64,000 nt of DNA, from assembly GCA_029213195.1 (NCBI GenBank), contig JARGNI010000005.1:1-64000 (forward strand). Direction: 5' to 3'. The stretch's first letter is position 1, and each line of letters begins with the position of its first letter. Source of the stretch: Verrucomicrobiales bacterium (GTDB lineage Bacteria > Verrucomicrobiota > Verrucomicrobiia > Verrucomicrobiales > DEV007). A model generated the notes under the pieces. The model made no database searches. It worked only from the letters and a program-made list of their open reading frames with translations, and was not told where the DNA came from. Positions 8,107 to 64,000 of the stretch are shown here, piece after piece. Position numbers and translations under genes: made by a program.

Positions 8107-8454
8107 ATGAAAGGTTCTCGTATCATGTGGATCGAGGACAAGTCGGACAACGGACTCGCGGGGCCAGCCCGAATCGGAAGGGTCACCTTTTCCAAGACAG
8201 GACGGTCCGTCTACTACAAGGGGAAGCGGTATGCCTCGCTGGCAGGGTCTGGCTACAAGGCCAATTACATCGAGGTTCAAACCGGAAAGAGATTCTGGAT
8301 TTCAGGGTGCCACGAAGACGGCAAGGACGCCCTCTACAACACTTCCGTGGAAATCGATGAGGATGTCCGAGTCGAATATTGGACAGAAATTCGAAAACGC
8401 CCTGAAATGCTCGAAACACAATCGTTTCGGGCTCGGGGAAAATACAACCGATAA
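8107..8454 (+). CDS. small conserved-type protein of unknown function
   Basis: 115 residues from ATG 8107; a second Met at 8125 (MWIEDKSDN) is an equally possible start. It is a soluble, beta-rich-looking protein with RIGRVTFSKTGRSVYYKGK and a central KRFWISGCHEDGKDALY segment. I believe similar short proteins occur in many bacteria, sometimes carrying misleading transferred names, but I cannot assign a function. It lies 30 bases after the small membrane protein gene and 95 bases before rpsU. Confidence 0.65.
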   Translation: MKGSRIMWIEDKSDNGLAGPARIGRVTFSKTGRSVYYKGKRYASLAGSGYKANYIEVQTGKRFWISGCHEDGKDALYNTSVEIDEDVRVEYWTEIRKRPEMLETQSFRARGKYNR

Positions 8455-8549
8455 CTTGACGAATTGATCGATTGCCCCTAGATTCCGCGTCTCTCTCACG
8501 AGAGGCTGCCCGTCCAGGGAAATCCAGATCTGAAATACCCCACTCTACT

Positions 8550-8774
8550 ATGCCAGAAGTCGATATCAAAAAAGGCGAGCCGATTGAGCGTGCGTTGAAG
8601 CGCCTCAAGGGTAAGATGGAAGCCGAAGGCGTGATGGAAGAAATCCGCCGTCTTCGTGCCTTCGAAACTCCGGCAGAGAAGACCAAGCGCAAGGCTCGCG
8701 CCAATGCAAAGCGAAATCGGGGAAATCGTTTTCGTTTTACTCTCAAGGACAACAAGCCCGCCGAGAACGAGTAA
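8550..8774 (+). CDS. rpsU: 30S ribosomal protein S21
   Basis: 74 residues from ATG 8550 (MPEVDIKKGEPIERALKR); the frame extends 78 bases further upstream without S21-like sequence. The S21 signature is clear: GEPIERALKRLK, then an EGVMEEIRRLRAFETP segment and a highly basic KTKRKARANAKRNRG tail. S21 is a small subunit protein important for initiation. The C-terminal extension (FRFTLKDNKPAENE) is longer than in E. coli. A strong terminator lies 36 bases downstream. Confidence 0.93.
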   Translation: MPEVDIKKGEPIERALKRLKGKMEAEGVMEEIRRLRAFETPAEKTKRKARANAKRNRGNRFRFTLKDNKPAENE

Positions 8775-8810
8775 GACTCCCCTTTCCTTCAGATCTCTGG
8801 AAACGACGAA

Positions 8811-8836
8811 AGCCATCCGCGAGGATGGCTTTTTTT
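8811..8836 (+). terminator. intrinsic terminator of rpsU
   Basis: A perfect 8-bp stem AGCCATCC/GGATGGCT is closed by a GCGA (GNRA-type) tetraloop and followed by seven T residues. Confidence 0.93.
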
Positions 8837-8917
8837 GTGCCCGTTCGCGGCAAATAAAGCATCGCTCGAAAGAGCACCGACGGCTTCCCTGGTCACGACC
8901 CCACGAATCCGAGAAAC

Positions 8918-8946
8918 AAAAAAGGGCCGTCCGAAGACGACCCTTT
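8918..8946 (-). terminator. intrinsic terminator of the cytochrome c peroxidase gene
   Basis: On the minus strand, AAAGGG-T-CGTC pairs with GACG-G-CCCTTT around a TTCG tetraloop, followed by T-rich sequence. It lies about 30 bases after the peroxidase stop codon. Confidence 0.85.
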
Positions 8947-8978
8947 CACAACAACGGTGAAGTCAAGAACCGAGGGGA

Positions 8979-10001
8979 TCAGGACCCCGCCTTGGGCGTA
9001 TCCGGTCCGTCGGCTGGAAGTTCAGGCTTGGCAATGAACTCTTCATCGATCCGACCTTTGAGCGCCCCGAGGAAAGTGACGATTGATTTCACGTCCTCAT
9101 CGGAGAGTTCACGACCCATTTGGTACTCGGCCATCTTCGCGGTCATCTCTTCAAGAGACTCGATGGATCCATCGTGCATGTAAGGACCGGTCTCGGTGAT
9201 GTTCCGCAAACTGGGAACCTTGAAGAAATACTTGTCGGCTTCGTTGCCCGTTGCTTCGAAACGGCCCTTGTCCTCGGTCGGCCATTCTTTGACGAGACCG
9301 AGTTTCTGATAGAGGTGACCTCCGACTCCCATGCCATTGTGACAGGTGGTGCATCCGGTCGACATGAACAGGTTGAGACCATGCTTCTCATCATCCGTGA
9401 GAGCATCCTCTTTCCCTTTGAGAAAATCATCAAAGCGGGAAGGCGTCATCAGCTTTCGCTCGAACGCGCCAATCGCGTTTCCAATGTTTACATACGTGAT
9501 CGGCTCATCCTGCTCCGGGAATGCCTTCTTGAAGGCATCGACGTAACCCGGGATGGAATTGACGACTTTCAGGACATACTGCTCATCCGGCATTCCCATC
9601 TCGATCGGGTTGGTCACCGGACCGATGGCCTGCGCCTCGACGTCCTTGGCGCGTCCATCCCAGAACTGAGCGATGTGAATCGCTGCATTGTAAACCGTGG
9701 GAGCGGAACGACCACCCTCCTGATCATTGATCCCCTTGGAAACGGCCAGGCCATCATCGCCAAAGGAAGCGAGGTCGTGGCAGGTGTTGCAGGACACCGA
9801 GCGATTTTTCGACAGACGAGTGTCGTAGTAGAGCATTCGTCCCAGATCGACCTTGGCATCCGTCACCGGATTCTCGGAATTTTCGGCCACTTCAAGGATG
9901 GGCTGAAACATCCCCAACATGGCGCGGTTGACTTCGACTTCTGCACTGGCGCTGTAGGCCAGGGAAGAGACGGCAAGGACGGATAGTGCGATTCGTTTCA
10001 T
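8979..10001 (-). CDS. di-haem cytochrome c peroxidase (MauG/CCP family)
   Basis: 340 residues. A signal peptide (MKRIALSVLAVSSLAYSASA) directs it to the periplasm. There are two c-type haem sites, CNTCH (Cys71, Cys74, His75) and CTTCH (Cys217, Cys220, His221), at the usual spacing for bacterial di-haem peroxidases, plus FWDGRAKDVEAQA and TGPYMHDGSIESL. It reduces hydrogen peroxide with electrons from the respiratory chain; a MauG-like oxidative role is possible but less likely without an amine dehydrogenase nearby. An Irr/Fur-type palindrome lies about 50 bases upstream of the start. Confidence 0.93.
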   Translation of the reverse strand: MKRIALSVLAVSSLAYSASAEVEVNRAMLGMFQPILEVAENSENPVTDAKVDLGRMLYYDTRLSKNRSVSCNTCHDLASFGDDGLAVSKGINDQEGGRSAPTVYNAAIHIAQFWDGRAKDVEAQAIGPVTNPIEMGMPDEQYVLKVVNSIPGYVDAFKKAFPEQDEPITYVNIGNAIGAFERKLMTPSRFDDFLKGKEDALTDDEKHGLNLFMSTGCTTCHNGMGVGGHLYQKLGLVKEWPTEDKGRFEATGNEADKYFFKVPSLRNITETGPYMHDGSIESLEEMTAKMAEYQMGRELSDEDVKSIVTFLGALKGRIDEEFIAKPELPADGPDTPKAGS

Positions 10002-10136: not shown

Positions 10137-11318
10137 ATGCCCTCTTCAACGATGTCGCCAACCGTGGATCCCCCGCCTGTGGACTCATGGCTCCGGGAAT
10201 CAGCCACCCCCTCTCGAATTTCGAGATTCCGGAAGGGGTCGAAAAACCTCGCCGACTCGCTTTTCGGCTTCTTCGCAATGATCGGAGCCCTTGCGGTGAT
10301 TTCGGTCATACCCGTTCTCAACCTCCTCAGCCTGGGCTATATGCTGGAAGCTTCTGCGCGAGTCGCCCGATCGGGTCGCTGGAGAGATGGATTCATCGGG
10401 ATGCAAAGCTTTTCGAGCCTGGGGAAGATCGTCTTCGGCATCTGGATTTGGATGCTCCCGCTGAGATTGATCTACAGTTTCTGGATCGATGCTGAATTGA
10501 TCGATCCAGGAGGTGCGCGAGGTAAAGAGCTTCAAGGTTTGTTTGCCGTTTGCGCAAGCGTCGTCGGACTGCACTTGATCTGGGCGCTGATTCGAGGGGG
10601 AAGACTTCGGCACTTTTTCTGGCCCGCGCCGATTTCTTTCATTCGTTGGCTGGGAACGCCCCACCCTGTTCGCCCACTCTGGAACTCTTTCGTCAACCGG
10701 ATCAAGAGCCTCACCATCCTCAAGTATTTTCGAACCGGATTCTTCGGATTCGTGGTCGCCGCAGCATGGCTGGCTCTCCCGGTTCTCGTCCTCTTTCTCG
10801 GAGCAAGCGTGAAGCTGGATGGCCCCGCCTTCCTGATCTCCCTCCTTGGAGGGATCCTGCTAGGGACAGTCGCCCTGTTTCTTCCCTTTCTCCAAACCCG
10901 TCTCGCCATGACGAACTCTCTTCGCGAAGGCTTCTCGATTCGCTCGGTCCGAACCCTGTTCCGTCGCGCTCCGATTGCGTTCTGGCTGGCCTTGGTCATT
11001 ACCCTTCTTTTCTCCCTCCCGCTCTATTTGCTGAAAATCGAGCTGACGCCTCGGGAGGTTGCCTGGCTCCCGAATCTCCTGTTCGTGTTCTTTCTTTTCC
11101 CGGCGCGTATCCTCACGGGATGGGCGGTTCATCGAGGGGAAAAACGCGAAACATCCCGGATCTGGGTCTCACGCTGGCTGGCCCGTCTTGCTGCCCTACC
11201 CGTCGTCGCAACCTACGTTCTCGTCGTATGGCTGTCTCAATACCTGAGCTGGCATGGATCGCTCAGCCTGATCGAGCAACATGCCTTTCTCGTCCCTGCC
11301 CCCCTGCTGGGACTGTAG
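10137..11318 (+). CDS. polytopic membrane protein of unknown function
   Basis: 393 residues from ATG 10137; ATG 10152 (MSPTVDPPP) is also possible. After a cytoplasmic Pro/Ser-rich start there are about seven hydrophobic segments, including FFAMIGALAVISVIPVLNLL, FFGFVVAAAWLALPVLVLFL, GGILLGTVALFLPFL and FWLALVITLLFSLPLYLL. The LSLGYMLEASARVARSGRW segment resembles the DUF4013-like membrane proteins common in Planctomycetes and Verrucomicrobia, which have no known function. It is divergent from the peroxidase gene and converges with the NagB-like gene 43 bases away. Confidence 0.7.
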   Translation: MPSSTMSPTVDPPPVDSWLRESATPSRISRFRKGSKNLADSLFGFFAMIGALAVISVIPVLNLLSLGYMLEASARVARSGRWRDGFIGMQSFSSLGKIVFGIWIWMLPLRLIYSFWIDAELIDPGGARGKELQGLFAVCASVVGLHLIWALIRGGRLRHFFWPAPISFIRWLGTPHPVRPLWNSFVNRIKSLTILKYFRTGFFGFVVAAAWLALPVLVLFLGASVKLDGPAFLISLLGGILLGTVALFLPFLQTRLAMTNSLREGFSIRSVRTLFRRAPIAFWLALVITLLFSLPLYLLKIELTPREVAWLPNLLFVFFLFPARILTGWAVHRGEKRETSRIWVSRWLARLAALPVVATYVLVVWLSQYLSWHGSLSLIEQHAFLVPAPLLGL

Positions 11319-11361
11319 TAGGCGGAGGAAATACTCCGAGGCTGACGTCTATTCGGTTGAA

Positions 11362-13284
11362 CTACCCCTTCCAGATCTGAAAGGCTTCGATCGCTTCGTA
11401 TTCGGCGAGACCAAGCGAGTCATACTCTCCAGCGATCTCGCGATTTCGCTCTGGTTCGCCGGTATCGTCTGAGGTCGAAAGGAACTTCCGAATCGCATTG
11501 CTCTTTTCGTCAACCTGGTCCGGGCTCATCGGGACCGCCATATCGATTTCCTGGGCCTCATAGGCATGGTCCCTTCCCCGATGCAGCCAGACGTTGCATC
11601 CCGATTGCCACTCGGCATCAGAGAGCCCTTGGTAGGCCTCGGCTAAGGCTGCAAAGCAGATCGCCTGTGGGCTACTCGGATCGCCGGCGTCACCGGTGGC
11701 AAAAATGATGTCCGGGCACTGATCCGCAAGGACCTCCCTGATGAGGGCCGTGTCTTTCTCGCTCCGTTGGAAACGACGATATCGCCCTTCTTCATAAAAA
11801 GGCAGGTCGAGAAAAGAAATCCTGTCCGCATCCAGGCCACAGACGGAAGCCGCGTCCCGAGTTTCTCCCCGGAGAATCAACCCTTTCAATTTCCGAACGA
11901 GCTCCGGATCGACTCCGAACTCTCCTTTTTCTTCGAGCGCATCTAGAATGGACTGGGCATAGGCTACCTGGTTCTCCCATCCCTCCGCCTGGAGCGACTC
12001 CGCCATCTCGAGAATGACTCGAGCAAAATTCAGTGCCGCGACATCGGCGACCCGCAAGTTTCCTGAAGTCAGAAAGTAGATTTGAACATCGTGCCCCTGC
12101 TCCTTGAGTCGCTCGATGGTTCCTCCCATCCCGATGAAAGCATCCGCGGGTTCGGGGCTGAATATCAGCACTTTCTTCGGAAAGGGAATGGCGCGCTCTG
12201 GTCGATTGGTGTCGTCTGCACCCGGTTTCCCGCCGGGCCATCCCGTGATAGTGTGCTGAACGCGGTTGAAACTGTCGATATTGACCTCGTAGGCAGCCTC
12301 GGAAGTCGATGCGAGCAGTTCCCCCGCTCCGCTCTCGTTGTAGTCCTCGTCGACCAGCTTCAGGATGGGCTTCTCCAGCTTTTTCGAAAGCCAGACGACC
12401 GCGCGACGTTTCATCGCGGCATCCCAGTTCACCGGCCCGACGAGCCAGGGATAACGGAACCGGGTCAGCCGTGTCGAGGCGGCTTCATCGATCAGGAACA
12501 CGGCATTCTTGTGTGATTGCAGGAAACTGGCCGAAATCTGGTCGGTCATCAGCCCTTCCACCGCTTCCTGAACGATTTCGGCCTTGTTGCTTCCCCAGGC
12601 CATGAGGACGATGCGACGAGCTTCGAGAATGGTTCCCACCCCCATCGTGATCGCAGATCGAGGGACATTCGCCACCCCCATGAAATCGGCCGCGGCATCT
12701 TGCCGAGTCATTCGATCCAGGGTGATCATACGAGTGATCGAGTCGGCCGATGAGCCCGGTTCGTTGAAACCGATGTGTCCGGTCCGGCCGATACCAAGAA
12801 TCTGAAGATCCAGTCCGCCCGCCTCCCGGATGGATTCTTCGTATCCGAGACAGTAGTCATACACTTCCTCCATCGGAATCGTGCCGTCGGGGATGTGGAT
12901 CTGATCCTCCGGGATATCGACATGATCGAACAGCTGATCATGCATAAAGCGGTAGTAGCTCTCAGGGTGATCTCGGGGCAGGCCGTAATATTCGTCGAGA
13001 TTGAAGGTGATGACATTGTGAAAACTCAGTCCATCTTCCTGGTGAATCCGAATCAGCTCCCGATAGAAGGGAACGGGAGTCGAACCGGTAGCGAGCCCGA
13101 GGATCACCTTCTCTCCAGATTCCTGACGCCACCGAATGAGGTCGGCAGTCTCAGCCGCAAGCCTGGCACTGGCTTCCTGCGAGCCGGGGCAAACCAAGGT
13201 GCGAATCTTTTCAAATCGCTCCTGCTGAGAAGGATTGCGATCGTACTCGTCGAGAATGGCGCTGGTAAATGAGGGAACGGTCAT
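11362..13284 (-). CDS. long-form glucosamine-6-phosphate deaminase: NagB fused to a PIG-L/LmbE-like domain
   Basis: 640 residues from ATG 13284 (MTVPSFTSAI). Residues 25-310 are a NagB domain: TGSTP at 66-70, FNLDEYYGL at 94-102, GIGRTGHIGFNEP at 164-176 (His170, Glu175) and a GVANVPRSAITMG lid. It would convert glucosamine-6-phosphate to fructose-6-phosphate and ammonia. From about residue 370 a PIG-L-type deacetylase fold follows (KVLIFSPEPADAFIGMGGT), but its metal site is altered: the usual H-P-D-D is E-P-A-D at 378-381, and DPHGTH-like sequence is DPSSPQ at 535-540. The position of E. coli NagB Asp141 is Thr168, which I believe is usual in long-form proteins. Confidence 0.88.
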   Translation of the reverse strand: MTVPSFTSAILDEYDRNPSQQERFEKIRTLVCPGSQEASARLAAETADLIRWRQESGEKVILGLATGSTPVPFYRELIRIHQEDGLSFHNVITFNLDEYYGLPRDHPESYYRFMHDQLFDHVDIPEDQIHIPDGTIPMEEVYDYCLGYEESIREAGGLDLQILGIGRTGHIGFNEPGSSADSITRMITLDRMTRQDAAADFMGVANVPRSAITMGVGTILEARRIVLMAWGSNKAEIVQEAVEGLMTDQISASFLQSHKNAVFLIDEAASTRLTRFRYPWLVGPVNWDAAMKRRAVVWLSKKLEKPILKLVDEDYNESGAGELLASTSEAAYEVNIDSFNRVQHTITGWPGGKPGADDTNRPERAIPFPKKVLIFSPEPADAFIGMGGTIERLKEQGHDVQIYFLTSGNLRVADVAALNFARVILEMAESLQAEGWENQVAYAQSILDALEEKGEFGVDPELVRKLKGLILRGETRDAASVCGLDADRISFLDLPFYEEGRYRRFQRSEKDTALIREVLADQCPDIIFATGDAGDPSSPQAICFAALAEAYQGLSDAEWQSGCNVWLHRGRDHAYEAQEIDMAVPMSPDQVDEKSNAIRKFLSTSDDTGEPERNREIAGEYDSLGLAEYEAIEAFQIWKG

Positions 13285-56248: not shown

Positions 56249-57406
56249 ATGACTGAATCTCCCCCATCTGCCGTTTCCTGCCTGCTTCCCGGCCCTCTGG
56301 ATTCTGGGCTGATGAAGGAAGCGCTCGAGGATGCGAGGGAGAAGCTCGCCGCCCCGCCTGATCTCGCGATCTGTTTTGTCAGCTCCGATTTCCGAAAATC
56401 CCTGCCCGACCTCATCGAGCACTTCCAGATCGATGGACACGCCACCACCCTCGTCGGGGCTTCGGCATCCGGGCTCCTTGGTGTGGGTCAGGAATCGGAA
56501 AATCAAACGGGGATCAGCTTCCTGCTCCTGCGCCTTCCTGGCGTCGAGATCACGCGAGAGAGCGATTTCTCCTCGAGGCCACGCCGCTCGACTCCGCCCC
56601 CTGCAGGTGCGATCGTGCTGGCGCATCCATTTCGAAGTTCCGCAGGTGAAATGACGACCTCGCTCCAGGAGAGGTTTCCTCGAACTCCGGTCCTCGGAGG
56701 ACAGATTTCCGGAGGTCCCGAGCTCGATGACCTGTTTCTTTTCACCGAAGAAGGAATCTCGCGCGAACCCATGCTGACGATCACCTTCTCCGGTGCGATC
56801 CGAATGGAGCCACTCGTCGCTCAAGCCTGCCGCCCGATCGGAGAGCCCCTCATTGTCACCGGAGCGCAGGGAACTTCCCTGACGTCTATCGCATCACGGA
56901 AACCACTTCAGGTTCTCGAAGACGCCTTCACCGAATTGACTCTCCGCGATCAGGAAACAGCCCAGGGAAACATCTTTGCCGGCGTTGCGATCGAGGAAGA
57001 ACGGGAAGAGTTTACTTCCGGCGACTTCCTGATCCGCCCGATTCTCAGCGCCGATCTGGATCGCGGCGAGCTGGAACTCTCCTCCCCTACCCGAGTGGGT
57101 CAGACGCTTCAGTTTCAACTTCGTTCTCCTGCCGTCGCGACGGAAACGCTGAAAGCGGAATGCGATCACCTCTTCGAAGCTCATGGAAAGCCATTCGCCT
57201 CACTTCTCTTTGCGGGTCGAGAACGCGGGGTCGAGCTGTTTGGGGAAGACAATCACGACATCAACATCTTCGAAAACAACTTCGGGTCCCTTCCCGTTGC
57301 GGGGATCTTCGGGAGTGGCGAGATCGGTCCCGCTGGAAATCGGCTTTTCCATCATGACCATTCGTTCTGCGGGGCGCTCTTCTATCCGCAGGAAAACGCC
57401 GACTAG
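56249..57406 (+). CDS. FIST domain protein (putative small-ligand sensor)
   Basis: 385 residues with no membrane segment. The FIST N-terminal domain covers about 20-200 (LAICFVSSDF, TTLVGASASGLLG, VLGGQISGG) and the FIST C-terminal domain about 215-375, with an ACRPIGEPLIVTGAQG start and a SLLFAGRERGVELFGEDNHD segment near the end, closed by GIFGSGEIGP. FIST domains are predicted to sense small ligands such as amino acids. No histidine kinase or chemoreceptor is attached, so it acts alone or with partners encoded elsewhere. Confidence 0.9.
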   Translation: MTESPPSAVSCLLPGPLDSGLMKEALEDAREKLAAPPDLAICFVSSDFRKSLPDLIEHFQIDGHATTLVGASASGLLGVGQESENQTGISFLLLRLPGVEITRESDFSSRPRRSTPPPAGAIVLAHPFRSSAGEMTTSLQERFPRTPVLGGQISGGPELDDLFLFTEEGISREPMLTITFSGAIRMEPLVAQACRPIGEPLIVTGAQGTSLTSIASRKPLQVLEDAFTELTLRDQETAQGNIFAGVAIEEEREEFTSGDFLIRPILSADLDRGELELSSPTRVGQTLQFQLRSPAVATETLKAECDHLFEAHGKPFASLLFAGRERGVELFGEDNHDINIFENNFGSLPVAGIFGSGEIGPAGNRLFHHDHSFCGALFYPQENAD

Positions 57407-57454
57407 GTTCTTGCTCTTCTCAGAGGAGGACCGGTATCCTTCGTCGGATTGATC

Positions 57455-58174
57455 ATGCTGACCGATACCGTGCGCCCCCAGACCGATGCCGAAGCGTGGC
57501 AGTTTCGGAATCGTGTGGAGGCGCTCACTCAATCGATTGAAGAAGCAAAACCGGAAACCAGGCTGGCCGCCTGCGCCTGCATGATCGTTTTCGCCCTCTT
57601 GCTCGTAGCCGGGGCGATCGCCCTCAAGTCGCCGCTCTGGTGGCTGGAGGGGACCACGCCTATCCTCATCGCCCTGGTCGTTTTCAATCTTGCGATCGCC
57701 TATTCCCCGAAGAGTCGATACGAACGCCTGGTCGAGCCTTTCCGAAAGCAGACGGCAGAGGATGCCGAGACAGGGAAGGTCCGCTCGATTCGCGTGCAGG
57801 CGGTCCGTGTCCTCGTGCGCCAATGGCCCCTGGACGGGATCCATTGCCTGATCTTCGACGGGGGGAAAGGACGATACCTTGCCGTCGTCGGCCAACAGTT
57901 CCCAGAAACCCATCGATTCCCTTCGACCGACATCGAAATTCTCTTGGGGACCCGCCATGGAACCCTTCTTACGGTCCTTCATCGAGGCGAGAAATTCGAG
58001 TCGGTGGAGTATGTATCGAGTGAGGACATCCCCCTCGGACCATTGCCCGACCAACCATTCACGGTCTTCGAAGCGGCTGAAAACGCGACGGTCGCACAGT
58101 TGATCGGAACGATCTCGGTCGACACCTATCGGCCCGCGCAAACTACGATGCTAGCTTCGCAAGAGCGGTCTTGA
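57455..58174 (+). CDS. two-helix membrane protein of unknown function
   Basis: 239 residues from ATG 57455 (MLTDTVRPQTD). A helical N-terminus is followed by two membrane segments, CACMIVFALLLVAGAIAL and TTPILIALVVFNLAIAY, and a cytoplasmic C-terminal domain of about 150 residues with a beta-rich look (GIHCLIFDGGKGRYLAVVG). I do not recognise a family. It lies 48 bases after the FIST gene on the same strand. Its last 32 bases overlap the end of the convergent protease gene of the RiPP cluster, so it borders the cluster but is probably not part of it. Confidence 0.65.
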   Translation: MLTDTVRPQTDAEAWQFRNRVEALTQSIEEAKPETRLAACACMIVFALLLVAGAIALKSPLWWLEGTTPILIALVVFNLAIAYSPKSRYERLVEPFRKQTAEDAETGKVRSIRVQAVRVLVRQWPLDGIHCLIFDGGKGRYLAVVGQQFPETHRFPSTDIEILLGTRHGTLLTVLHRGEKFESVEYVSSEDIPLGPLPDQPFTVFEAAENATVAQLIGTISVDTYRPAQTTMLASQERS

Positions 58175-58943
58175 ATTGAGAGGTATTCATCTCCGGAAAG
58201 ACGCTGCGCAAGCGTGCGGCCATGCCCGTGACCTGGGGGCAGGCAAAACTGGTGCCGGTGAAGTTCCTGTTTCCCCCATGGATACTGGGAGCCTCGAGGT
58301 AAATCCCGGAAGCTTCGACCTCGATGCAGTGAAGAGGAGAGAACCGAAACTGCTCCGGGCTTTCGAAATGTTCGAGATCGACCCCGACGACGGAGGAAAG
58401 TCCGGCGGGAAAACCGATGGCATCGGGACGGTTCGCTTTGGCCGCCACGAGAATGACACCCGAATAGTAGGCCCGGTCGGCGATATCGGCGAACTTGTCG
58501 AAATTGAGTTCGGTTCCGAGGCTGAGATTGATGACATCCCATTCCTGGTCAATCGCAAAGTCGAGGGCCGCGAGCAGCCTCTCGGAGCTGGTGTTGTGTT
58601 GAGGACCGAGGACCTGCACACTGTGAATCTCCGCCTCGGGAGCCTGTTGATGAATGAGAAAGGCGTTGGCCGTCCCGTGATCGAGCACATCCTCGCCCTG
58701 AGCGCGCTCGACGACACGGGCGTCGTTTCCCGATCCGATCACTTCGTAGTTGGCGACCACCTTCCCGTCGAGATCGGGATGATGAGACGCCACTCCGGAA
58801 TCAAGCAGACCGACTTTGACGCCGTTGCCGTTGCCTTTTGAAAAGCACTCACGCAGGCGCCCTCCATCGATGAGATCGAGGAAGCGGATCGGCTCCCTGC
58901 TGGGAGTTTGAGGAGGAAAAACAGCCGCGGGATCAGCCTGCAT
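58143..58943 (-). CDS. subtilisin-like (S8) protease of the RiPP cluster
   Basis: 266 residues from ATG 58943, overlapping the preceding TAA by one base (TAATG). The triad is in order: Asp48 in VKVGLLDSG, His89 in VLDHGTANAF, Ser232 in FTGTSFACPQVTGMAA, with Asn171 in AKANRPDAIGFPAG as oxyanion residue. The domain is compact, with no signal peptide, prodomain or membrane anchor, so it should work in the cytoplasm. In a RiPP operon a stand-alone S8 protease most likely removes the leader from the precursor, which fits the exporter's lack of a C39 peptidase domain. It is the last gene of the operon. Confidence 0.85.
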   Translation of the reverse strand: MQADPAAVFPPQTPSREPIRFLDLIDGGRLRECFSKGNGNGVKVGLLDSGVASHHPDLDGKVVANYEVIGSGNDARVVERAQGEDVLDHGTANAFLIHQQAPEAEIHSVQVLGPQHNTSSERLLAALDFAIDQEWDVINLSLGTELNFDKFADIADRAYYSGVILVAAKANRPDAIGFPAGLSSVVGVDLEHFESPEQFRFSPLHCIEVEASGIYLEAPSIHGGNRNFTGTSFACPQVTGMAARLRSVFPEMNTSQFKTALAKLAS

Positions 58944-60148
58944 TACCAACCTCCCGTTCCGAGTTGATTCGCCCAGGCCGCCCACTCGCGCTGTTCGTAC
59001 TCCTTTTCGATCTCCTTGTCCTCCTTGCGGAAGTAGTCCCAGGCTTCCTCGAACTCGTGGATGTGCTTCCCTGGGCAATCGAGGAGTTTCTGAAACCATT
59101 CCGGATCCGTGAGCTCGTAGCGACGAACCGCGCGGGGGGCATTTTCACGAAATTCCTTTCGAAAGGAGGGGTCTGCGATCCGCCCCATCAAGGCTCTTTG
59201 GAAGCTGCGGAATCCGGCGAACTCGGGTGCCATCGGGTCGGGAGCCGGCACGGTCCGGGAAGGGCTCTCGACGGGGAGATACTCGGGGGCCTCGGCCGGG
59301 CGATGGGTGTAGAAGATCTCGCGGGCTTTTCGGATGTCCGTCATGACCGAGGAAAAAGGATTGAGCTTGCTGTCTCGCTCGAGAATCACGATCCGCGTGT
59401 TCTCCGCTCGCCGGACCGCTTCGTCGAAGAGCGGCCAGACCTCGTCCATGACGGGCGCGGAGTGACTGTCTTCCCACCGTCCATCCGGCAACTGGTGCCC
59501 TCCCGCGAGATGCATCTGCGAGACTCGATCCATGGGAAGTCGGTCAAAGAACTCGATGGGATCGTATCCGTGGTTCCGGGAATTGTTGAAGACGTTCGTA
59601 ACATCGAGGAGGAGCGTGCAATCGGTTTCCTCGCAGATTCGCCGGAGAAAGTCGGCCTCGCTCAGGGTGCCATGAGGGACGGGAAAGGCATAGGTCACAT
59701 TCTCCAGGGCAAAAGGTCGCCCGAGACGGCGACGGGTTTCATAGTAGTTCCGTTTCACCCATTGCACCGCGACCTCTTCGAAAGGGAGGGAGAGAAACAT
59801 GGTCAGATCGTTCCCGTCGACCCGATGAAAGGCGAGATGCTCGGAGAAAACCTCGATAGCATGTTCGCGAAGAAAGCGATCCGTCGCCTTCAGATAGACG
59901 TCGTCGAGCTCTCCCACGGTCCCGATCGAGAGGCTGAGTCCATGGGCGACACAGGGAAAGCGGGCCAGAGCGTTGTGGAGCAATCGCTCGTCAGGATCGC
60001 TGTAAATGCGACGTTCGCGGACGATGTAGTCTTCGGTGGAGAGTTCGAGCAGATCGATTTCGGATCGATGAGCCACCGCCTCCTCGTGCACGTTGAAACG
60101 GTAGGCCAGGCCTACGCCGTAGGGGGTTTGATGCAGAGAGGATGCCAT
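58943..60148 (-). CDS. DUF692/MNIO iron enzyme with C-terminal extension
   Basis: 401 residues from ATG 60148 (MASSLHQTPYGVGLAYR); the upstream frame lacks family sequence. Residues of about 10-285 follow the DUF692 TIM-barrel plan with metal ligands in order: VAHGLSLSIG, VFSEHLAFHRVDGND, ENVTYAFP, LLLDVTNVFNNSRNHGYDP, QMHLAGGHQ, EDSHSAPVMDEVWPLF and IVILERDSK. MNIO enzymes use two or three non-haem irons to modify RiPP precursors, mainly at Cys, also at Asn or Asp. Residues of about 310-375 add a helical domain (FQRALMGRIADPSFRKEF, ELTDPEWFQKLLD) resembling separate partner proteins. It lies 208 bases after the precursor gene. Confidence 0.85.
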   Translation of the reverse strand: MASSLHQTPYGVGLAYRFNVHEEAVAHRSEIDLLELSTEDYIVRERRIYSDPDERLLHNALARFPCVAHGLSLSIGTVGELDDVYLKATDRFLREHAIEVFSEHLAFHRVDGNDLTMFLSLPFEEVAVQWVKRNYYETRRRLGRPFALENVTYAFPVPHGTLSEADFLRRICEETDCTLLLDVTNVFNNSRNHGYDPIEFFDRLPMDRVSQMHLAGGHQLPDGRWEDSHSAPVMDEVWPLFDEAVRRAENTRIVILERDSKLNPFSSVMTDIRKAREIFYTHRPAEAPEYLPVESPSRTVPAPDPMAPEFAGFRSFQRALMGRIADPSFRKEFRENAPRAVRRYELTDPEWFQKLLDCPGKHIHEFEEAWDYFRKEDKEIEKEYEQREWAAWANQLGTGGW

Positions 60149-60181
60149 GACAGAAAAGGAAGGAGGGGAAAAGGGATAGGA

Positions 60182-60237
60182 CAGGGTCAGGTGTTCGACC
60201 CAACAGGGTGACGCGGGGCAGCAGACAGGGTCAGGTG
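60182..60237. repeat. 14-bp direct repeat in the RiPP operon leader of the MNIO gene
   Basis: GACAGGGTCAGGTG occurs at 60180-60193 and again near 60222-60235, with a partial third copy (ACAGGGTGA) between. The repeats lie in the long untranslated stretch between the precursor stop and the MNIO start. Function unknown. Confidence 0.5.
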
Positions 60238-60356
60238 AGCGATCAAACCGGGTGGTCGACAGCAATCGAGGAGAGAAAGAGATCCGAACCGCCGAGGGTG
60301 CACCAGGGAAACAGCACCAAGGCGATCGGATGAAACCTTCTGACAGCGTTCATCGA

Positions 60357-60695
60357 TTACCAGCGACGGCAGGAGTTGCGCCAGCAATTGCGTCTCCAGC
60401 AGTTGCTGAAGTAATTACGTCGCCAGCACCAACCGTGGGCTTCGACATCGGCGCGCTCTTCAGTCGGTGTTTCGCAGCTGCCACTTTCGTTTCCGGAAGT
60501 GTAGATTTGAATCACGACCTGACCACCCGTTCCCGGGACCGTCATTTGCGGCGCAGGGCCAACGGGTGATGGGGCTGGGCCGACTCCGACCTCCCCGAGC
60601 TTTTGTTTAATCTCCTCTGCCGGGATCATCTTGTCATCAAGCTGATCGTCCGCGACATCGTAGAACTTTCCGTCACTACTTCTTAGTATTGCCAT
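60357..60695 (-). CDS. RiPP precursor peptide with Trp/Arg/Asn/Cys-repeat core
   Basis: 112 residues from ATG 60695. The leader (about 1-65) begins MAILRSSDGKFYDVADDQLD and has an amphipathic PAEEIKQKLGEVG helix, then a Gly/Pro-rich hinge and a hydrophobic VVIQIYTSGN strand. An acidic stretch (about 70-86) precedes the C-terminal core, residues 88-112. The core contains repeated units: WCWRRN, YFSNCWRRN, CWRNS and CRRW, with four Cys, five Trp and seven Arg in 25 residues. This composition cannot be a normal folded domain and matches a peptide awaiting modification. The genes around it are a radical SAM maturase, an MNIO and a protease. The frame extends 78 bases upstream, less credibly. Confidence 0.82.
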   Translation of the reverse strand: MAILRSSDGKFYDVADDQLDDKMIPAEEIKQKLGEVGVGPAPSPVGPAPQMTVPGTGGQVVIQIYTSGNESGSCETPTEERADVEAHGWCWRRNYFSNCWRRNCWRNSCRRW

Positions 60696-60731
60696 TGGTT
60701 TTCTTGGTTTAGTTTTGGTTTGGGTTCTTGT

Positions 60732-60763
60732 CAGGGCACAGCAAGGCACCAGGCCTCGCCCTG
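60732..60763. repeat. hairpin between the radical SAM and precursor genes
   Basis: CAGGGC at 60732-60737 pairs with GCCCTG at 60758-60763, with an inner AGGC/GCCT pairing. No T-run follows, so it is not a terminator. It lies between the maturase stop (60780) and the precursor start (60695) and could stabilise a precursor-specific mRNA. Confidence 0.45.
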
Positions 60764-60779
60764 CGACCGACAAAAGGGA

Positions 60780-62066
60780 TTAAAGGGATCTACCGTCCTC
60801 GGCTGGGTGCGCTTGCTCGAGAATGGGGGAGATCCGGTCGTGGAGTTCGAGGTCGCTCTCCATGTCTTCGAGAACGATCTGCATCGGCATTTGCACCGTC
60901 GAGATGCACTGGTGTGTTTCGGTAGAATCGAAGCTGCCGTTTTCGTAGTACTTGTTGGAGGGCGAAGCCCCCCCGCAGTAGTCGTAGAACTCACAGGTCT
61001 CGGCACACTTGCGGTTTCCTGCTTCGATATCGGTGAGCACCTTTTGAAAGGCCTCGTTCACCGTGGCATCGAAGAGGGACCCACTGATCAAGTTTCCGAA
61101 ATTGAAGGATCCATACTTCTCGGTAGGCTGCCCGAGAAGTTCCGGAGAGAATGAAGAGAAATTCCCGAAGCAATCGACATTGACCATCCCGAAAGGATCG
61201 GCCTCCTGGTTGTAGTAGTTGCCGCTGGGATCCGAGCACCAACCAGGCTCGAGGATATTGCGTTCGGCATTCTGGAACTCTCGAACATTCAGGGGAAAGC
61301 CGTCGGCCTTGTTTCTCTCGTAGAAGCGTTTCAGGAAAGAGTAGACTCGTTCGTGTCCCCCTTCCTTCCCGAGAGAGGAGGTTTCGTTGGCGCCTTCGAC
61401 CTCCTCGATGTTGAAGCCAATCCCAGTGATCCCGTTCTCTCGATAGAAGTCGTAGATCTCGTCGGGATGATCGATGGAGACATCGGAAATCACCGTGATC
61501 ACCCCGAAAGGAACTTCGTTCCGCTTCAGCGTTTCAAGACCTCGCATTGTCTTGTCGAAGGTCCCCTCCCCTTTCCGCGTCTTGCGATGGTGATCGTGAA
61601 TCGCCTGAGGACCGTCGACGCTGAGACCGACTTCGACTTCGTGCTCTTTCAGGAAGTCGCACCACTTGTCGGTAAGTAGTGTTCCATTGGTTTGGACCGA
61701 GTGGATCACGTAGTCCTTTGCCTGAGGATTGCGGTTGATGATTTCAAACGCCTTTTCGTACCACGAGATCGGAACCGCGAGCGGTTCGCCGGCATGCCAA
61801 AGGAGACTGAACGGCGACTGGACAAGGCCACTGTCCCAAACCTTGTCCATGATCGTTTCGAGAACCTCGAAATCCATCCGCCGGGTGTCGGTTCGGTTCG
61901 GCAAATAGCAGTAGTCGCAATTGATGTTGCAGAACGGACTCGGTTGGATCACGAGCAGACCGAGAGCGAGTCTGTCCGAGTTCTGGGGAGTGAGCTTCGG
62001 AATATCGGAAGGCGCTCCGCGAAGCGAGGCGGAAGAGGTCGAGATGGGGTCGATGGCGAGGGTCAT
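60780..62066 (-). CDS. radical SAM/SPASM peptide maturase (GrrM-like)
   Basis: 428 residues. The radical SAM cluster is CNINCDYC (Cys46, Cys50, Cys53) inside VIQPSPFCNINCDYCYLPNR, followed by LLWHAGEPLAVP, SVQTNGTLLTDKW and VGLSVDGPQAIHDHHRKTR. The C-terminal SPASM region supplies further Cys ligands in EPGWCSDP, NVDCFGNFSS and KCAETCEFYDYCGG, then ETHQC. The CYLPNR and WHAGEPL context matches maturases of the GRRM/cyclophane-forming group, which link an aromatic ring to a side chain two residues later. The adjacent precursor has W-R-N, F-S-N and W-R-R triplets. It overlaps no neighbour; the precursor follows after 84 bases. Confidence 0.9.
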   Translation of the reverse strand: MTLAIDPISTSSASLRGAPSDIPKLTPQNSDRLALGLLVIQPSPFCNINCDYCYLPNRTDTRRMDFEVLETIMDKVWDSGLVQSPFSLLWHAGEPLAVPISWYEKAFEIINRNPQAKDYVIHSVQTNGTLLTDKWCDFLKEHEVEVGLSVDGPQAIHDHHRKTRKGEGTFDKTMRGLETLKRNEVPFGVITVISDVSIDHPDEIYDFYRENGITGIGFNIEEVEGANETSSLGKEGGHERVYSFLKRFYERNKADGFPLNVREFQNAERNILEPGWCSDPSGNYYNQEADPFGMVNVDCFGNFSSFSPELLGQPTEKYGSFNFGNLISGSLFDATVNEAFQKVLTDIEAGNRKCAETCEFYDYCGGASPSNKYYENGSFDSTETHQCISTVQMPMQIVLEDMESDLELHDRISPILEQAHPAEDGRSL

Positions 62067-62119
62067 GATGAAGGTCCGACGATTAGCATTTCTAATGTAT
62101 GGAAACTTTCGGAATCTTT

Positions 62120-62287
62120 TTACTTATCCAGATCCGAGTGGACTTCGAATCGCCGGGGAGTGGTTTTTTCCTGCTCGGCGAGCTTGCGATATTTCCGAGC
62201 CACCTCGATGCGATGAGCGATCGGGAGGCGAGCACGGAGAGCTTTTCGAACCGACTGGATTCGATAATCGAGAGGAGAGGATTTCAT
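62120..62287 (-). CDS. small basic protein at the head of the RiPP operon, 55 aa
   Basis: ATG 62287 to TAA 62120. The product begins MKSSPLDYRIQSVRKAL, continues LPIAHRIEVARKYRKLAEQE and ends PRRFEVHSDLDK. It is highly basic and helical, with no Cys or Trp, so it is not a second precursor of the same kind. It lies 53 bases upstream of the maturase with no terminator between, so it is probably the first gene of the operon. It might be a regulator, an immunity factor or a maturation partner; I cannot choose. No family recognised. Confidence 0.55.
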   Translation of the reverse strand: MKSSPLDYRIQSVRKALRARLPIAHRIEVARKYRKLAEQEKTTPRRFEVHSDLDK

Positions 62288-62438
62288 GATTTGTCAGGAG
62301 GTTGAGGATCTGGAGGGCTCCCTCGGAAAGTCGAATCGAACTGAATAAACACTGGCTCTGATTCGTTTCTCCGAAGACGCTATGTAGAGAAGGACGCGCC
62401 TCTCCTGCGGCTTATGCGAAACGAAACGACAATCCTTG
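62288..62438. promoter_or_regulatory. divergent promoter region of the RiPP cluster
   Basis: The 151 bases separate the operon on the minus strand from the ABC exporter on the plus strand. Both promoters should lie here. A TATGTA near 62382-62387 could be a plus-strand -10, but I see no clear -35 element and no known operator. Confidence 0.4.
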
Positions 62439-64000
62439 ATGCCACACCCCTCTCATCCTGACATTCTTTCCACGGGGGATCCGTTTCCCGACCCCATCGA
62501 GGAAGGGGCAGGCGGATTCGAAGATGGCGAGGACGAACTCGATCCCCGAGAGATGCGTCGCCATTGCTTCCGACTGATCCGGGAGGTCACTGGGAAACTC
62601 GGATGGAAATACAAGGCCTGGATTCCCGCCGCGATCCTCCTCTCAGCAGTCCACCTTCTCCCGCAACGCTTCCTCCAGTTCTTTACCGAGGGGACCCAGA
62701 CTCTCGAAGAGACCGGAGCCTCGGAGTTCCTGACCTTGCTCGTGATCTTCGGAATCGCCGTGGGAGTCTGCCAGTGGGTTTCTCTCGTCCTCGACAGCAT
62801 CCTCAGTGAATGGCTTCGGCTCACGGTCAGCATCGGGCTGAAACGCGATGCGGTCGAAAGCCTCAGCCGGACCCGGATCGATGCCCTCGATTCCGCGGAA
62901 CGCGGCGACTGGATGACGAGACTCTCAAGTGACCTCTACAACGCCGAGGAATTCCTCACCGCCTCCCTCCCCGAGCAGGTCACAAATGCGACGATGATGA
63001 TCGGCGCGGCAGCCCTGTTTTTTTATCACAGCGGCCCAATCGCTTTCATCCCGATCGGCGCGGCGCTCTTCCTGGGATGGTTCAATATCGTCGTGCAGCG
63101 ACGCATGGCTCCCACCCTGAGTGCCGCCCGACAACTGGAAGGAGGCGTCTTCCAGGCCATGATCGAAACCTTCGAGGGCTTGCGAACAATCCGGAGTTTC
63201 GGAGGAGAGAAATTCACTTTTTGGCGACTCAATCAGCAGTTGAAAGATCTCTTCTCGGCTGGAATGCGGATCACCAAGTCGATGGCGCTGCTGATGGGCG
63301 TCAATGAACTCGTCGGTCAACTTGTCATCACCGGTGTGCTGACCCTCGTCGCCTACCAGATCCGCGGCGACGAGCTCACGGCGAGCGATGCCTTGGTTTA
63401 CCCGTTCTTCATTCACCTCTTCCTTGGTGCCGCGAAAGGTCTCGTCGCCTCCGCCTACGATTGGAATCGATTCTTTATCGAGGGGGGACGCCTCGCCTCC
63501 TTGCTCTACGACGAGGAAAACAAGGAAGCGGATCGAGCCGAGACCTTTGGCACACTGGAATCTCGCATACACGATGTCCAAACCTGGGAGGCGGAGGGAG
63601 TCTCGATTCGATATGGAGACGGCCCGCTCGTCGTGGAGAACCGGGACCTTTCCCTTTCACGAGGAGAACTCGTCGCCCTCATGGGCGAATCGGGATGCGG
63701 TAAATCGACTTTCGCGGAAGTCTTCGCGGGGTTGCGGAGATCCGAGAACGGGACCTTTACCGCCCACTTCGAGGAAGAGGACCCGCTCACCTACTCCGCA
63801 GCGCCCCCTTTCCTGGTCGCCTTTGTCGAGCAGCAACCCTATCTCTTCGTGGGCTCGGTGCGGGAGAATATCCGACTGGGAAATGACGAGGTGGAGGACG
63901 ACAGGATCCTTCGAGTTCTGGACGAAGTGGGTCTCTCGGAAATGATCGAGAGTCGTGGCGGCCTCGACCAGGTTCTCACCGACCGAGGCCGAAATCTCAG
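62439..64000 (+). CDS. ABC exporter of the RiPP cluster (fused membrane and ATPase domains), truncated by the window end
   Basis: 520 residues are visible from ATG 62439; no stop occurs before the window edge. An acidic cytoplasmic start (about 1-50) leads into the exporter membrane domain (segments near 61-76, 96-115, 186-200, 202-218 and 291-306), with the coupling-helix-like EGLRTIRSFGGEKFTF. The nucleotide-binding domain begins near 385; Walker A is GESGCGKST (416-424) and the Q-loop is VEQQPYLFVGSVRENI. The signature motif would follow the last visible residues (GRNLS). There is no N-terminal C39 peptidase. It would export the finished peptide after cytoplasmic leader removal. Confidence 0.88.
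   Translation, partial: MPHPSHPDILSTGDPFPDPIEEGAGGFEDGEDELDPREMRRHCFRLIREVTGKLGWKYKAWIPAAILLSAVHLLPQRFLQFFTEGTQTLEETGASEFLTLLVIFGIAVGVCQWVSLVLDSILSEWLRLTVSIGLKRDAVESLSRTRIDALDSAERGDWMTRLSSDLYNAEEFLTASLPEQVTNATMMIGAAALFFYHSGPIAFIPIGAALFLGWFNIVVQRRMAPTLSAARQLEGGVFQAMIETFEGLRTIRSFGGEKFTFWRLNQQLKDLFSAGMRITKSMALLMGVNELVGQLVITGVLTLVAYQIRGDELTASDALVYPFFIHLFLGAAKGLVASAYDWNRFFIEGGRLASLLYDEENKEADRAETFGTLESRIHDVQTWEAEGVSIRYGDGPLVVENRDLSLSRGELVALMGESGCGKSTFAEVFAGLRRSENGTFTAHFEEEDPLTYSAAPPFLVAFVEQQPYLFVGSVRENIRLGNDEVEDDRILRVLDEVGLSEMIESRGGLDQVLTDRGRNL

Follow-up and report, generated by a model that had tools for sequence, protein, structure and literature searches.

The precursor gene and its neighbours

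In the window, i.e. the whole 64,000-nucleotide stretch analysed here, a short precursor peptide gene on the minus strand follows orf55 and a radical SAM/SPASM gene and precedes the genes of an MNIO and an S8 subtilase; an ABC transporter gene is divergently oriented (Table 1). Rfam returned no match within 58000-64000, and promoter and terminator scans yielded predictions about as frequent as in shuffles. Distances between the cassette genes were correlated (r 0.86-0.95, calculated without an unlinked control gene and leaving out the second L031 precursor and incomplete ORFs). These correlations fit common descent; alone, they do not demonstrate cooperation.

Table 1. Coordinates of the cassette features in the window and the evidence behind each assignment
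Feature	Position	Strand	Evidence
Precursor peptide gene, 112 aa	60357..60695	-	translation; 17-row and 19-row alignments
Precursor start (ATG) and stop	60695 (ATG); 60359-60357 (stop)	-	translation
Core GWCWRRNYFSNCWRRNCWRNSCRRW, last 25 residues	codons 60434-60360	-	translation, alignment
Radical SAM/SPASM, GrrM/OscB family, 428 aa	60780..62066	-	TIGR04261
MNIO (DUF692) enzyme, 401 aa	58943..60148	-	PF05114, residues 11-278
C-terminal domain of MNIO, residues 303-401	58943..59242	-	weak Os1348/LigA/borosin-precursor likeness
Small S8 subtilase, 266 aa, candidate leader peptidase	58143..58943	-	PF00082, E 9.7e-26
ABC transporter (TMD + NBD), 601 aa whole, to contig position 64244	62439..64000, leaves window	+	PF00664, PF00005
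orf55, small Arg-rich conserved ORF, 5' of radical SAM gene	62120..62287	-	9-row alignment

The precursor comprises a conserved leader (residues 1-35) that begins with MAILRSSDGKFYDV, a variable Gly/Pro-rich linker (36-86) and the core (88-112). It shows no Sec signal apparent by eye and matched neither NCBIfam (E <= 1; again at E <= 10) nor any Pfam model, DUF2282 included (E <= 1). Translation bore out the original prediction of a precursor that ends in repeated Trp-Arg-Arg-Asn / Cys units, and its count of four Cys, five Trp and seven Arg agrees with the window core. Its placement of the core was likewise right as a reading, except that the end coordinate of 60432 falls two bases short of 60434. 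The units are W91-R-R-N94, F96-S-N98, W100-R-R-N103 and W105-R-N107, with Cys at 90, 99, 104 and 109.

Taken singly, the window core holds two [W/F]-X-N triplets against a shuffle mean of 0.91 (reached in 1059/5000 shuffles), four [W/F]-X-[N/R] triplets against 2.53 (922/5000) and three Cys directly before W/F against 0.97 (160/5000). Given its composition, the triplets of this one core are thus not beyond chance. Pooling 18 distinct cores gave 71 [W/F]-X-[N/R] triplets (mean 32.0) and 54 Cys directly before W/F (14.8), each reached in 0/5000 shuffles, a figure that does not equal 18 independent tests as the pooled cores share descent. Conservation by position is the stronger evidence.

Conservation of the core among relatives

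Nine residues (H87, W91, N98, W100, R102, N103, C104, R106 and N107) are invariant in all 19 precursors of the 19-row alignment, in which the placement of the first two units is uncertain for three distant cores. One further precursor of the same genus, whose core reads N, was omitted from the 17- and 19-row alignments, and its locus was kept for gene order. Sixteen cores follow a layout A, roughly xC-WRRN-xFxN-xWRRN-C[W/F]RN-tail, and three (L038, L055 and L056) a layout B, x-WxN-CWRRN-CWRN-CWHN-CW. Together the 19 cores contain 76 aromatic-X(X)-Asn units, in which the aromatic residue is preceded 54 times by Cys, 12 times by Tyr, 9 times by His and once by Ser. At least two W/F-X-N units occur in each core. 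The [W/F]-X-[N/R] triplets number four in every core except that of L027, which has His in place of Arg at i+2 of its first unit and three triplets in all. Four Asn are present in 18/19 cores and six in the remaining one. In W100-X-R102-N103, Arg and Asn are both kept throughout and the residue between Trp and Arg is R, Q or S.

The cysteines are less uniform, numbering from 2 to 5 per core. C104 is the only one invariant in 19/19 cores, C90 is missing in one (L038), and position C99 is taken by Cys in 10, His in 6 and Tyr in 3. A further Cys follows C[W/F]RN in 17/19 cores and is absent after CWRN in both cores of L031. In this last genome, two precursor genes stand in tandem (8316-8669 and 8815-9165); their tails are rich in Tyr, and one core has three Cys, the other two.

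The original prediction had expected the aromatic-X-Asn/Arg triplets to persist in related precursors, and 19 precursors keep them; the refuting outcome it had named, a core motif without conservation among relatives, did not occur. That Cys would be conserved alongside, with variable spacers between, came true for the aromatics, the Asn and the linker (mean pairwise identity 0.57 over residues 36-86, versus 0.80 for the core and 0.73 for the leader), and only in part for Cys. Similarly, the claim that each unit brings a Cys describes the window, by the division into units used there, as well as L055 and L056, but not the family as a whole. Raw nonsynonymous/synonymous codon differences were 1.01 for the core, 0.85 for the leader and 1.45 for the linker; by this measure, constraint is greatest in the leader, and the core does not exceed it.

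The radical SAM enzyme belongs to the GrrM/OscB family

The radical SAM protein scored 454.9 bits against TIGR04261 (GrrM/OscB; cut-off 310), the next model being AmcB with 310 bits (cut-off 425), and all 19 aligned members, window included, matched TIGR04261 at E <= 1e-60. A CxxxCxxC motif lies at C46/C50/C53, its cysteines invariant in the aligned members, and Pfam gave no B12-domain match (E <= 1). It shares 38-41% identity with the GrrM enzymes found on plasmids. Those of a Phaeobacter and a Nostoc plasmid adjoin likely precursors that end in WLNSWSNWNNWSNWYKPWHNFSNYSWGNW and NWDNSFLQWNDSWGNGGNGH, respectively, each a string of W/F-X-N/D and hence with Asn/Asp at i+2. In three plasmid GrrM loci (Phaeobacter, Nostoc and Streptomyces; 7 to 9 kb each, a small sample), tblastn found no MNIO, S8 or ABC match at E <= 0.01. 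On the Streptomyces plasmid (L094:1428-9095), GrrM stands beside genes annotated as lanthionine synthetase C family, thiopeptide-type bacteriocin biosynthesis and lantibiotic dehydratase.

According to excerpts of PMC11002830, the bonds that OscB forms reach the beta-carbon at i+2, from C7 of Trp to Asn/Asp and from C4 of Phe to Asn; with XncB, the partner of Trp is either Arg or Asn. Because of these reported joins, F96-S-N98 and W105-R-N107 would by analogy be textbook cyclophane sites, and W-R-R-N the unusual one; the literature searched yielded no description of a W-X-R-N ring type for the GrrM-type enzyme family.

An MNIO with a fused helical domain

The MNIO matched PF05114 at E 8.8e-71 and scored below the cut-off of every NCBIfam MNIO model matched, the nearest being HvfB (202 bits, cut-off 360) and BufB (189.6 bits, cut-off 310). 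Its AF2 model (mean pLDDT 86.2) matches TglH, 3bww and MbnB, and a fold search in BFVD returned generic matches, TIM-barrel-like ones among them. Ten residues (H69, H104, E149, D182, N185, H213, D227, H229, E257 and D259) align with solved MNIOs and are invariant in 18/18 members, window included; they presumably comprise the iron ligands. In FonB, Asp249 is the proposed catalytic base, and its neighbour Phe250 adjusts which substrate is chosen; the residue after the catalytic Asp is described as Phe in Lys-Cys captophorin enzymes and as Asp in Cys-Lys ones (excerpts of PMC12668002). Via the 3bww alignment, to which FonB was matched by inference, D259 and Ser260 of the window MNIO occupy the places of these two FonB residues. 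As Ser260 stands where FonB has Phe250, it would speak against a substrate of the Lys-Cys type. Neither KC nor CK occurs in the window core, and among the 19 cores only that of L033 has one KC.

In the predicted model, residues 308-398 form a fused helical C-terminal domain. It resembled NF038399 weakly (E 0.0012, below cut-off) and LigA at a best E of 0.0045, with 2/18 members matching; VIA-align gave Z 5.6 to 6lk7 over 65 residues and 4.6 to SonA over 46, in a list that also held unrelated rows, and Foldseek returned nothing at E <= 0.001. These helical matches lie under the level at which a helical match is trustworthy, so that a role as recognition or partner domain, similar to Os1348, LigA or borosin precursors, is a proposal for which the likeness is suggestive only. 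DUF2063 was considered for the fused domain and rejected: no Pfam match appeared at E <= 0.1 in 18 members, and TglI and NGO1945 were absent from the VIA-align list. Nor did any other window cassette protein scanned against Pfam match DUF2063, the PME-type 1 partner. As regards a PME-type 2 partner, which has a DUF2063-like fold, structural comparison of the fused domain listed just the low-Z Os1348- and borosin-precursor-like matches amid the unrelated rows.

Subtilase, transporter and neighbouring genes

The subtilase start overlaps the MNIO stop (TAATG), and the protein has no signal peptide apparent by eye. Its nearest NCBIfam model is QhpE (NF049966), at 123.4 bits and below the cut-off of 165. 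D48, H89 and S232, which we take to be the catalytic triad, are conserved in the 11 complete rows of 12 aligned. The gene was found in 13 of the 18 loci that could be checked for it (excluding L032), and for this reason removal of the leader by the subtilase cannot be general. The divergent ABC gene is present in 18/18 loci with that side in view, L033 and L038 being uncheckable.

Two tandem RI..VR motifs characterize orf55. Its alignment covers nine loci, where it precedes the radical SAM gene, and it had no NCBIfam or Pfam match at or above cut-off. As its start resembled that of the Nostoc precursor, orf55 was considered as a separated GrrA-type leader; the idea was dropped when BLASTP gave no alignment.

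Near the subtilase, the window contains a FIST-domain gene (56249-57406, plus strand) and, between the two, a 241-residue ORF (57449-58174, plus strand) with likely membrane stretches by eye and no Pfam match at E <= 0.01. A GAF-domain gene adjoins the subtilase on the MNIO side in six of the loci scanned (L022, at 8750-9487, L023, L024, L025, L027 and L029); the L022 GAF protein had no match in the window's own genome at E <= 1e-5. No copper or resistance genes were recognized among ten neighbouring proteins scanned, and no DoxX or metal genes among the proteins scanned.

Distribution and gene order

The radical SAM gene occurs in 18 of 95 genomes (window's own included; E <= 1e-40): 15/33 in the genus, 3/25 in the rest of the family and 0/37 in the rest of the order sampled. 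A precursor was found in 14 of the 33 genomes of the genus, all 14 of which carry the radical SAM gene. L036 is the sole genus genome with a radical SAM gene and no precursor; there the radical SAM gene lies at a contig edge, which makes the locus uncheckable for precursor, MNIO and subtilase. Public genomes scanned with the precursor profile gave 18 loci, all assigned to Verrucomicrobia, Verrucomicrobiia, Verrucomicrobiales or Akkermansiaceae, two of them (L055 and L056) new. The viral contigs, plasmids and phages searched held no precursor relatives. Among 288 sampled genomes of the phylum, only the window's own contained the MNIO of the cassette at E <= 1e-80, and it was also the only one with a TIGR04261 match at E <= 1e-60; the range of the cassette therefore looks narrow. 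Its carriers are a group of uncultured Verrucomicrobia. DUF692 clusters, and verrucomicrobial clusters in Antarctic soil, have been described (PMC8692599), and a cluster of the window type is not in that description, as far as the excerpts of that paper go.

Wherever this could be checked (19/19 loci), the precursor lies between the gene of a cyclophane-type radical SAM enzyme and that of an MNIO. The MNIO gene follows on the same strand in all 19, window included, and directly in 18, with a gap of 95 to 352 bases in the direct loci (judged, not measured, for the locus whose core reads N). In L022 alone, a threonine-dehydratase-like gene (10905-12485, minus strand) separates precursor and MNIO.

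A proposed maturation route and its alternatives

From the observed gene order, protein families and conservation we infer every chemical step of the following route, as well as the step order and export. The cassette probably encodes a triceptide-type RiPP, in which cross-links at W/F-X-N (and W-X-R or W-X-R-N) would be followed by MNIO oxidation, likely of Cys, and by leader cleavage and export. The conserved leader of the 112-residue precursor would be bound, upon which the GrrM/OscB-type enzyme may link Trp/Phe rings to the beta-carbon two residues on and so form as many as four small cyclophanes. At F-S-N and W-R-N the join would be that of known OscB substrates, and in the two W-R-R-N it would lie at Arg i+2 or Asn i+3. 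The MNIO, aided by its fused C-terminal domain, might then oxidize the peptide; the invariant Cys104 would be the likeliest site, with Cys90 as a further candidate. Where it is encoded, the subtilase would act in the cytoplasm to remove the leader, and export of the rigid cationic product would fall to the ABC transporter; these last two steps lean on the precedent of QhpE, which cuts the cross-linked QhpC subunit, and QhpF, which exports it (excerpts of PMC7876137).

A more specific version, which we put forward tentatively, has two metalloenzymes working in register on a [Cys/His/Tyr]-aromatic-X-(X)-Asn repeat. The GrrM-type enzyme would staple each aromatic residue to Asn/Arg, W-X-R-N ring included, and the MNIO with its built-in RiPP-leader-like domain would convert the Cys between rings; the outcome would be a rigid, cationic ribbon, one face of which is lined with metal-binding groups.

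Only one of the four Cys is strictly conserved, so Cys may not be what the MNIO modifies. It could instead hydroxylate side chains of Phe, Trp, Asn or Arg, or target the four conserved Asn, with Cys left unmodified in disulfides or binding metal, a scenario to which we assign a minor share of the probability. The Asn are better conserved than the Cys, MNIOs are reported to act also on Phe, Asn, Asp and homocitrulline (excerpts of PMC12452194, PMC12257519 and PMC13174530), and Ser260 takes the place of the Phe of Lys-Cys captophorin enzymes and the Asp of Cys-Lys ones; yet the nearest profiles are those of HvfB and BufB, families reported to form thiooxazoles on Cys (excerpts of PMC12668002 and PMC12452194), and C104 is invariant. 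That same proximity to HvfB and BufB would suit a product that is chiefly metal-binding, captophorin- or bufferin-like, rather than antimicrobial, as would the Cys, Tyr and His that precede the aromatic residue in nearly all of the 76 units. Against this stand the precursor, which has neither a Pfam match such as DUF2282 nor a visible Sec signal, the variable Cys number, and the proteins scanned, among which no DUF2063, DoxX or metal gene was recognized; we consider a chiefly metal-binding product rather unlikely.

The ring size at W-R-R-N allows for a comparable divergence. These units could form four-residue cyclophanes (Trp to Asn at i+3) or stay uncrosslinked, three-residue rings then being confined to F-X-N, W-R-N and W-H-N. 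Both GrrM comparator precursors place Asn/Asp at i+2, Asn ends the units in layouts A and B alike, and L027 replaces the i+2 Arg of its first unit by His, all of which would favour this reading. R102 is nevertheless as invariant as N103, with a changeable residue before it, which is the pattern expected of an i+2 link, and XncB is reported to join Trp to Arg (PMC11002830, excerpts), so that the four-residue or uncrosslinked form seems possible but doubtful. Finally, the core could be a chance low-complexity tail of an unrelated protein. The triplets of the single window core, being not beyond shuffles, would allow for this; nearly fixed spacing and residues in 19 conserved precursors beside the same enzyme genes refute it, and we rule it out as chance or artefact with hardly any reservation.

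Relation to known systems

Cyclophane enzymes and MNIOs are each already known; what is new is that a single cassette combines a triceptide enzyme with an MNIO, the latter having a fused C-terminal helical domain. With GrrM/OscB triceptides the cassette shares a radical SAM/SPASM enzyme above the curated cut-off, encoded next to the precursor, and W/F-X-N core units. It differs from them in its Arg-rich W-X-R-N, its regularly placed Cys and its MNIO, as well as in a precursor without NCBIfam match. MNIO RiPPs (captophorins, bufferins, oxazolin) likewise have a PF05114 MNIO adjoining the precursor and Cys in the core, and the window MNIO, nearest HvfB/BufB, keeps the residues that align with solved MNIOs. 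In contrast to these systems, it scores below the HvfB/BufB cut-offs and carries the fused helical domain, the core lacks Lys-Cys/Cys-Lys, no DUF2063 partner was recognized among the cassette proteins scanned, and a cyclophane enzyme is added.

The biphenomycin-like pbs pathway comes close in that its MNIO and radical SAM enzyme share one precursor, which ends up with a three-residue ring; however, the radical SAM enzyme there depends on B12 and couples two ortho-Tyr (PMC12257519, excerpts), while that of the window is a SPASM-type GrrM/OscB relative. Maturation by QhpD, QhpE and QhpF also combines a radical SAM cross-linker, a leader subtilase and an efflux ABC transporter (PMC7876137, excerpts). 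Unlike there, the window subtilase falls below the QhpE cut-off, the radical SAM family is a different one, and the substrate is a peptide, not an enzyme subunit.

No title or abstract start in the literature searched pointed to a cluster that combines an MNIO with a GrrM/OscB-type enzyme. The main text of an MNIO landscape (PMC12452194; figures excluded) does not contain "Verrucomicrob", "rSAM" or "SPASM", and has "radical SAM" in the reference list only; a table footnote there states that one MNIO requires "an SAM radical". No such pairing of a probable stapling metal enzyme with a probable oxidizing one was seen in the few related clusters used for comparison.

Three-residue cyclophane synthases and MNIOs are two fast-growing enzyme families, which the cassette brings together on a single short substrate, and its 19 natural precursor variants point to positions that each enzyme may need. 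Should the proposed chemistry hold true, it would provide a new peptide scaffold and a test of how an MNIO can do with a fused domain instead of a separate partner protein.

In a set of 384 genomes, 8 others (L079-L088, from two other families of the class) have tandem precursors that begin with the leader type of the window precursor. Where read, the cores of these precursors are rich in Tyr and Asn, with YNNYYNYQNYMNHYGW as an example. In 8 of the 10 stretches there is a distant radical SAM match nearby, and in 0/10 an MNIO match; the two radical SAM proteins scanned were nearest PapB, under its cut-off. Set beside the window cassette, these loci present a leader type common to two cyclophane-like systems.
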